Assembly (NCBI GenBank): GCA_902560875.1
Contig: CACENO010000003.1
Location: 1 to 64,000, forward strand
DNA: 64,000 nucleotides
Source of the DNA: an uncultured Prochlorococcus sp.
Lineage (GTDB): Bacteria; Cyanobacteriota; Cyanobacteriia; PCC-6307; Cyanobiaceae
Direction: 5' to 3'
Shown here: positions 12,343 to 14,185 of the stretch, in pieces
Layout of the letters: every line of letters starts with the position of its first letter
Position numbering within the stretch: the first letter of the stretch is position 1
Notes under the pieces: generated by a model
The model's database searches: none
Told to the model about the DNA's origin: nothing
Seen by the model: only the letters and a program-made list of their open reading frames with translations
Program-made: the position numbers and the translations under genes

Positions 12343-12975
12343 CTACCAATTAAGTGCCATAGATACAATTGGGAACTCTTGGCAAAAGATTTCTTTACAC
12401 TCTTGCGCTATATCCATATGCTCTTTTTGAGTACCATGAGCTGAACGAAGTTTTATATAGTGAATCCAAGACCTGCAGGATCCTGTCATATATATTTTTG
12501 TAGGAGTGGCAATAGGCAGTACAAATCTTGCACACTCTTTTGCGATTCCAGCGTCAATCATCTCTTGATAAAGTTTAATAGACTCAGTGAATTGTGATTT
12601 GATTCTAGATTTGAATTTGTTTGCTATCTCATTAGGTAAGTCTGAAAAAGAGTTCTGTCGATTTTTATTATCTTGACGCCTTAGTTCAGGTATTGGGATC
12701 TCTCCAAGTTGTGTACTATCTGCGTATCTTTGGGAGAATTCTTGAAATGTGAAGGAACGATGACGCAAAATTTGTGCTGCAATACCTCTATTAGTTTCTA
12801 TTTGAAGTGTCATATAAGCTTGCTCAAATACACTCCAATGTTCATGGTTGATGCAGTATTGAAGTAGTTTGTCAAAGTTTTGATTATCTTGATTTTTTGG
12901 GTTGCTTACTCTTGCAACATAGGCCATGGTTTTTTCAGCATCTGGAGTAGTTGCTATCAGTTCTACTTTTTTCAT
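12343..12975 (-). CDS. thyX: FAD-dependent thymidylate synthase
   Basis: Makes dTMP from dUMP with methylene-tetrahydrofolate and FAD. The ThyX signature RHRX7S is present as RHRSFTFQEFSQRY near residue 75, and the C-terminal substrate-binding segment YMTGSCRSWIHYIKLR and AQECKEIF are as expected. Length 210 aa is typical. The ATG at 12975 lies 2 bases after the dcd stop, so the cobO-like gene, dcd and thyX form one minus-strand operon that links dUTP supply with dTMP synthesis. Confidence 0.96.
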   Translation of the reverse strand: MKKVELIATTPDAEKTMAYVARVSNPKNQDNQNFDKLLQYCINHEHWSVFEQAYMTLQIETNRGIAAQILRHRSFTFQEFSQRYADSTQLGEIPIPELRRQDNKNRQNSFSDLPNEIANKFKSRIKSQFTESIKLYQEMIDAGIAKECARFVLPIATPTKIYMTGSCRSWIHYIKLRSAHGTQKEHMDIAQECKEIFCQEFPIVSMALNW

Positions 12976-12977
12976 GA

Positions 12978-13571
12978 TTAAATCTTTGCAAGAGTAACGC
13001 GCTCAGGTTGATGCTGGTATTTTCCACTGCGATCGCTATAAGTAGTTTCGCAAGGATCACCTTCAAAGAACAAAAGTTGGCAAATTCCTTCGTTGGCATA
13101 TATACGGCAATCTGCACCTGAACTATTACTAAACTCGAGCGTTAGATGTCCTTCCCAACTTGCCTCTGCTGGTGTTGTGTTTACTATTATTCCTAATCGT
13201 GCATATGTACTTTTCCCAAGACAAATTACGGTTATATTTTCAGGAACTTTCATTTTCTCAAAAGCTACTCCTAAGCCATAAGAATGCGCAGGAAGAATAA
13301 AAAAATCACCATCTTCATCTTGATGCAGAGGTGTTGACTCTAAATTTGCAGGATTAAATCTTTTAGGATTCATTATTGTTCCTGGAACATGACGAAAAAT
13401 TAGAAATTCTTGAGAAGAAAGTCTTAGGTCGTATCCATATGAGGAACAACCAAAACTAAGTACAGGATGTGTTTTGGACTTAGGCTCTAGATGTCTCACT
13501 AAACCTGCTTGAAATGGCTCAAGCATTCCTGCTTTTGCTTGTTCAGTAATCCAGAGGTCGTTTTTAAGCAT
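12978..13571 (-). CDS. dcd: dCTP deaminase
   Basis: Deaminates dCTP to dUTP, the precursor route to dUMP for ThyX. The trimer dUTPase-like fold shows FGCSSYGYDLRLS near residue 40, LGKSTYARLGIIVNTTPAEASWEGHLTLEFSN near 118 with the catalytic glutamate region, and the EGICQLLFFEGD segment. Length 197 aa. The ATG at 13571 overlaps the stop of the upstream gene by one base, supporting translational coupling. Confidence 0.95.
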   Translation of the reverse strand: MLKNDLWITEQAKAGMLEPFQAGLVRHLEPKSKTHPVLSFGCSSYGYDLRLSSQEFLIFRHVPGTIMNPKRFNPANLESTPLHQDEDGDFFILPAHSYGLGVAFEKMKVPENITVICLGKSTYARLGIIVNTTPAEASWEGHLTLEFSNSSGADCRIYANEGICQLLFFEGDPCETTYSDRSGKYQHQPERVTLAKI

Positions 13572-14185
13572 TAGTAACCACAGCGTAATTCTGTGACTTG
13601 ATCCGCCATGGAAATTACTCGAGAGGGGATAGAAGGACCGGTAAGAATTACATCCATGGATCCTGGGCGCTGTTCAAGCGTATTAATCAAATCTTCTTCT
13701 TTGAGATAACCCAGCGAAATTGCGAGGCCTACTTCATCTAGGACAAGTTGATCAAGTTTGCTTGAAAGTATTCTGTTTTTGCAGACATCCCAGACTTCTT
13801 CAACAGCCTTCATTGCTATTGATTTGTCGATTTGATTGGTCTCTGAGTGAGTGCTTTCCTCAAGACAGAATGGGATTGCGGGCCGAAGCCATTCCAATCG
13901 GCCGCAAAGCCGAACCAATCCACTTGGCCCTTGGGAGACTCCACCTTTTAAAAATTGAGTAACCATAACTTTCCGCCCTAAGCCAGCCGCTCTTAGGGCT
14001 TCGCTAAGCACTACAGAGAAACTTCCTCTATAAGGAGCTGTATGCACCTGTAGTTGTCCTTCTTGTCCAACTAAGTGCAATAAAGAGTTGGAAGGATGCA
14101 ACTGGGTAGGTCGCAATTCAGATCGGTGCTCCCTGCTGCTCTGATTTTTCGCTTGGCAACTAGGGCTGAGGCTGCTTGTTATCAA
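13571..14185 (-). CDS. cobO: CobO/BtuR-family protein lacking the Walker A loop
   Basis: Resembles cob(I)yrinic acid a,c-diamide adenosyltransferase over about 150 residues: alignable parts include the strand before the loop (GQLQVHTA), KVMVTQFLKGG near 80, the Walker B-like LDQLVLDEVGLAISLGY near 145 and the C-terminal DVILTGPSIPSRVISMADQVTELR. The loop that should read TGNGKGKTT is TAPYRGSFS (residues 49-57), so the ATP triphosphate-binding lysine and glycines are gone, and the C-terminal tail after SELR-like residues is missing. The start is a TTG. Adenosyltransferase activity is therefore doubtful. First gene of the dcd-thyX operon. Confidence 0.75.
   Translation of the reverse strand: MITSSLSPSCQAKNQSSREHRSELRPTQLHPSNSLLHLVGQEGQLQVHTAPYRGSFSVVLSEALRAAGLGRKVMVTQFLKGGVSQGPSGLVRLCGRLEWLRPAIPFCLEESTHSETNQIDKSIAMKAVEEVWDVCKNRILSSKLDQLVLDEVGLAISLGYLKEEDLINTLEQRPGSMDVILTGPSIPSRVISMADQVTELRCGY

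Follow-up and report, generated by a model that had tools for sequence, protein, structure and literature searches.

A CobO-family protein without a P-loop, encoded beside dcd and thyX, accompanies class II ribonucleotide reductase in cyanobacteria

The window analysed here, 64,000 nucleotides of DNA from an uncultured Prochlorococcus, carries a gene for a protein with the fold of the corrinoid adenosyltransferases CobA/CobO in which the P-loop has been replaced by an unrelated segment. The protein belongs to the family PRK07414. Wherever this family was found among the cyanobacterial genomes that we scored, it was accompanied by the adenosylcobalamin-dependent class II ribonucleotide reductase (RNR), NrdJ, and the two are very probably functionally linked. 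As to the nature of the link, our tentative explanation is that the protein is a pseudo-adenosyltransferase kept to serve NrdJ, as a non-catalytic partner in the handling of its corrinoid coenzyme.

Results

The gene and its product

The gene and its neighbours are listed in Table 1. The product matches the Pfam family CobA_CobO_BtuR (PF02572; 8.5e-26, 91.6 bits, cut-off 25.7), and phmmer aligns its residues 42-201 with Salmonella CobA. Within this alignment residues 49-57 pair with CobA 35-43 without a gap, so that CobA K41 becomes S55 and T42 becomes F56, with R53 standing at the position of CobA K39. Walker B (LDE) and the segment TELR also align with CobA. The chain ends in RCGY, three residues past TELR, and the tail of about 19 residues found in CobO is missing. 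An earlier sequence-only reading had described just these features, namely a CobO homologue with TAPYRGSFS in place of TGNGKGKTT, an aligning Walker B, a TVSELR-like C-terminal segment and a missing tail, and all of them are borne out; its interval for the loop, 14012-14041, takes in residues 49-58, and in the translation of the open reading frame the motif itself is 49-57. It had also allowed for a relocated glycine-rich loop. This is ruled out by a sequence scan: neither the window protein nor any of the 88 orthologues collected contains a Walker A motif at another place.

Table 1. Features of the PRK07414-dcd-thyX region (positions counted in the window)
Feature	Position	Strand	Basis or remark
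PRK07414-family CobO paralogue without Walker A, 204 aa	13571..14185	(-)	putative TTG start codon
Replaced P-loop, residues 49-57 TAPYRGSFS (CobA 35-43 TGNGKGKTT)	14015..14041	(-)	sequence and phmmer alignment
TAATG overlap, PRK07414 stop codon / dcd start codon	13569..13573	(-)	sequence
dcd, dCTP deaminase	12978..13571	(-)	TIGR02274, 114 bits over cut-off
thyX, FAD-dependent thymidylate synthase	12343..12975	(-)	TIGR02170, 177 bits

An AlphaFold2 model built from 18 sequences has the CobA fold, with a mean pLDDT of 78 and core blocks mostly around 90. Its top matches in the PDB are 1g64 (Foldseek E 4.2e-11), 1g5r and 4hut. Next after CobA come the thymidine kinases and RecA, both of which bind nucleotides.

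The P-loop is lost throughout the family

The best NCBIfam model for the window protein is NF005648/PRK07414 (158 bits, E 1.4e-46). This score is below the curated cut-off of 248 bits, as is that of every picocyanobacterial member, and the Nostoc-like members score above 300 bits. A control search also gave a member above the cut-off in Synechococcus elongatus. For the family analysis, 88 PRK07414 sequences were gathered from across the cyanobacteria. The P-loop lysine is lost in all 88 (F in 48, S in 37, L in 2 and M in 1). The positions of CobA K41 and T42 hold F/S and F/Y, no glycines are left around them, and an arginine occupies the position of CobA K39 in 85 of the 88. Nostoc-like genomes typically have the loop TSxHR[NS]FFT, the picocyanobacteria TAPYRGSFS; the sequence-only reading had raised the question of whether the loop is common to all picocyanobacteria, and the loss of the lysine in fact extends from Prochlorococcus to the Nostoc-like genomes. 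The substitution is well beyond chance, being fixed in every orthologue, and this same universal loss rules out a local mutation or a sequencing error.

The changes are not confined to the loop. The column of CobA F91 is R, G or mixed (F in 8/88) and that of W93 is I or L; in CobA these residues serve to form the four-coordinate corrinoid. The arginine following TG (the TGR arginine) is gone, and so is the C-terminal tail, the chain typically running 3-5 residues past the TExR segment as against about 19 in CobO. The family has retained the D and E of Walker B and the equivalents of CobA Q63, K66, E128 and usually R51.

Phylogenetically, four separate clades are formed by PRK07414, by CobO and by each half of the tandem paralogue PRK07413; the PRK07414 clade, in which the window protein is placed, has a support of 100. 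The P-loop lysine is kept in 21/21 cyanobacterial CobO sequences of the same set. Close pairs of PRK07414 have a median dN/dS of 0.11, which implies purifying selection, and there are residues invariant across the phylum. PRK07414 is a separate, ancient cyanobacterial paralogue and not a CobO broken in place.

Other adenosyltransferases in the same genome

The genome from which the window comes (1.36 Mb, 74% complete) has a normal CobO, with the loop SGNGKGKTT, on contig C2, and the idea that the window gene is the only adenosyltransferase of the genome is thereby ruled out. A search of this genome for a PduO-type enzyme (PF01923, and likewise PF03928) found none. These two results bear on the question, posed with the sequence-only reading, of whether another adenosyltransferase exists. 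NrdJ is also encoded (G000:C9:12880-15180, RTPR 953 bits). PRK07413 was not found in the assembly at its 74% completeness, and we read this as incompleteness because in related genomes of the genus there are additional matches of the kind that PRK07413 would give.

Canonical ATP:corrinoid adenosyl transfer by PRK07414 is unlikely, judging from its sequence. The expectation that the canonical reaction would be lost, and a changed, non-catalytic role taken up, is thus supported by the missing P-loop, F91, W93, TGR arginine and tail; what has to be amended is the idea that an ordinary CobO has become inactive in situ, since this is a separate paralogue with a normal CobO elsewhere.

Gene neighbourhood

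The last A of the PRK07414 stop codon TAA is the first base of the dcd ATG at 13571, giving an overlap of one base, and through this TAATG the translation of the two genes is likely to be coupled. Between dcd and thyX the gap is 2 bp. The overlap, the gap and the TIGR02274 and TIGR02170 matches confirm the tight operon with dcd and thyX that had been proposed from the sequence. With coordinates taken from both searches, and counting genes within 1.6 kb on the same strand, PRK07414 lies just upstream of dcd in 31/38 genomes that have both genes; the 31 include every one of the 13 picocyanobacteria sampled. Elsewhere a gene for dCMP deaminase, dUTPase or a DCD-family protein stands beside PRK07414.

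PRK07414 and PRK07413 follow class II ribonucleotide reductase

Eighty cyanobacterial genomes, picked partly by their PRK07414 status and not by RNR class, were scored for class II RNR (TIGR02505), the class I small subunit (PF00268), PRK07413 and dcd. PF02867 does not pick up monomeric NrdJ and was rejected as a marker of it. Of the 80 genomes, 47 carry PRK07414. Every one of these has NrdJ and lacks the class I NrdB, while PRK07414 is in none of the 28 genomes with class I RNR only. NrdJ occurs without PRK07414 in three genomes (G051, G118 and G281); from these and from G200, described below, it follows that NrdJ can work without PRK07414.

In the companion paralogue PRK07413 two CobO domains are fused, each with an intact GKGKS loop, and the protein has a C-terminal RGVDY/F tail. 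PRK07413 tracks NrdJ as closely as PRK07414 does. PRK07413 was not detected in one genome that has PRK07414 (G084, in 100 contigs), and it is present without PRK07414 in four (G049, G051, G118 and G281).

Some individual genomes are worth describing. G200 (f11, g24) combines class I with class II RNR, lacks PRK07414, and holds a truncated C-terminal part of PRK07413 at the start of a contig; it has possibly been caught during replacement of NrdJ. G169, a class I-only genome, has a 77-residue N-terminal piece of PRK07413 that could be a remnant. In G049 (f7, g26; 3.76 Mb in one contig, 99% complete), searches for class II RNR, the class I small subunit and PF02867 gave no match. It has PRK07413 without PRK07414. 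NrdJ and PRK07414 are both present in the near-identical sister genome G230; in G049 an assembly loss of NrdJ and PRK07414, or an RNR that was not recognised, is possible. Finally, in G019, G118, G156, G132 and others the frames matching NrdJ are 1100-1850 aa long and the match within them is broken into pieces, a pattern suggestive of inteins in this enzyme in many filamentous cyanobacteria.

To correct for shared ancestry we used an rpoB tree of 79 genomes, on which the RNR class has changed about eight times. Among independent pairs, of which five are supported, PRK07414 changes in the same way as the RNR class in about 4.2 on average and in the opposite way in none, five pairs being too few for significance in a sign test. 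A Pagel-type likelihood test (our own code, on a quick single-gene tree, so that the p-values are approximate) gave correlated evolution with NrdJ for PRK07414 (p ~5e-8) and for PRK07413 (p 2e-8), as against p 0.97 for dcd, the control. There was likewise no tree-corrected correlation between dcd and PRK07414, and dcd as the driver of the PRK07414 distribution is ruled out by its presence in many class I genomes. The difference between PRK07414 and dcd in this test means that the association is with NrdJ, and is not merely one of shared ancestry or of a neighbouring gene. The sequence-only reading was right to favour a changed role, and the link to class II RNR, the best clue to what that role is, went unseen in it.

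Discussion

The proposed role

The explanation that we tentatively prefer builds on the fold, the universal loss of the P-loop, the selection acting on the gene, the dcd-thyX operon, and the co-occurrence with NrdJ and not with B12 synthesis generally. PRK07414 would have kept the CobA/CobO fold while being unable to bind the triphosphate of ATP in the manner of CobA, and would be maintained through its service to NrdJ, on which these cyanobacteria rely for their dNTPs. It would act without catalysis, as a corrinoid-handling partner. Most probably it would bind adenosyl(pseudo)cobalamin made by CobO or the tandem PRK07413 and pass it to NrdJ, with PRK07413 or CobO as the catalytic partner; alternatively it might hold the spent coenzyme for re-adenosylation. 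Co-expression with dcd and thyX would ensure that enzymes of dNTP synthesis are made together. Cyanophage PSS2, described below, speaks for this explanation in joining nrdJ, dcd and thyX to a PRK07413-like gene, and against it in lacking PRK07414. With the equivalents of F91 and W93 lost, corrinoid binding by PRK07414 is itself putative, and the dcd neighbourhood fits a role in nucleotide metabolism equally well.

The main rival takes up this last point. It holds that PRK07414 has no corrinoid role and is a nucleotide-sensing regulator, whose altered pocket would bind a dNTP or NTP in some other way and tune Dcd, ThyX or NrdJ. The overlapping operon, the conserved dcd neighbourhood and the other dNTP genes adjoining PRK07414 where dcd does not are all consistent with it, as are the retained D and E of Walker B and the thymidine kinases and RecA among the structural matches. 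However, the lack of any tree-corrected correlation of dcd with NrdJ or PRK07414 points to NrdJ as the evolutionary partner, the coenzyme of NrdJ fits the ancestral ligand, and the Lys and Thr that bind the triphosphate are gone; we consider a regulator possible, though on the unlikely side.

A regulatory pseudo-subunit, forming a heterodimer with active PRK07413 or CobO and steering adenosylation toward NrdJ, is improbable. CobA is a dimer, and PRK07413 itself joins two intact CobO domains and has the same RNR-linked distribution, both of which suit such an arrangement; against it stand G084, where PRK07413 was not detected beside PRK07414, and the reverse pattern in G049, G051, G118 and G281.

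We think it very improbable that PRK07414 is still an adenosyltransferase in which the conserved arginine (R53) or another residue replaces the P-loop lysine. There is an arginine near the old loop in 85/88 members, and the acidic Walker B and the Q/K residues are retained, but the F/S and F/Y at K41/T42, the absence of glycines and the family-wide loss of F91/W93, the TGR arginine and the tail all argue against it, and the genome already has a CobO. A general factor of the B12 pathway unrelated to NrdJ has the ancestry of the family to recommend it and is hardly credible, because a CobO-family match is found in 23 of the 28 genomes with class I RNR only, and PRK07414 in none of the 28. A decaying pseudogene or sequencing artefact, for which nothing beyond the lost motif can be cited, is refuted by the same loss in 88/88 sequences, the low dN/dS and the residues invariant across the phylum.

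The preferred reading of PRK07414 as a non-catalytic corrinoid-handling partner can be extended, more doubtfully, to a dedicated system for the delivery or repair of the NrdJ coenzyme. In such a system the dead CobO, PRK07414, would receive adenosylpseudocobalamin and hand it over, and the active tandem CobO, PRK07413, would carry out re-adenosylation. We know of no such chaperone or reactivase for NrdJ, and to our knowledge it is not settled how a class II RNR obtains or renews its coenzyme in the cell. The two CobO paralogues come and go with NrdJ across the whole phylum, and this makes them specific and testable candidates for coenzyme supply, one of them being predicted to have lost catalysis and to share a transcript with dcd and thyX. 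Both are found in Prochlorococcus and in marine Synechococcus, organisms dependent on B12 for DNA synthesis. Class II cyanobacterial hosts need adenosylcobalamin for their dNTPs (PMC6370689).

Comparison with known systems

In the open-access literature we found no publication on PRK07414, and none that connects paralogues of CobO with NrdJ in this phylum. The family has been catalogued without a function; within the CobO family it forms a branch of pseudoenzymes. NF005648 bears the name 'P-loop NTPase family protein'; none of the 88 members examined has a P-loop, so the name is wrong and is corrected here. The window protein shares with NF005648/PRK07414 its best-scoring model, its domain and the replaced loop, with the difference that the RGSFS of picocyanobacterial members is R[NS]FFT in the others.

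With CobA/CobO/BtuR (PF02572, TIGR00708; S. enterica CobA 1g5t/1g64/4hut) PRK07414 shares the fold and the order of its elements, including the LDE Walker B and the QF[IL]KG, RP, TG and AD..TE segments. It differs in having no P-loop, FTWE, TGR arginine or C-terminal tail (ending in G-I-[ED]-[YF]). The tandem CobO PRK07413/NF005647 is likewise a CobO paralogue that depends on class II RNR, and differs from PRK07414 in its two fused domains, its intact GKGKS loops and its RGVDY/F tail.

A related gene combination is found in PSS2, a siphovirus of Prochlorococcus that carries nrdJ, dcd and thyX together with a CobO-family gene, listed as a cyanobacterial cobO when the phage genome was described (PMC2784084). 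Its product (ACT65598; L076:11491-12525, equivalent to GQ334450 23802-24836) is a tandem protein with two P-loops, like PRK07413. The phage has thus taken nrdJ and a PRK07413-like gene, and not PRK07414.
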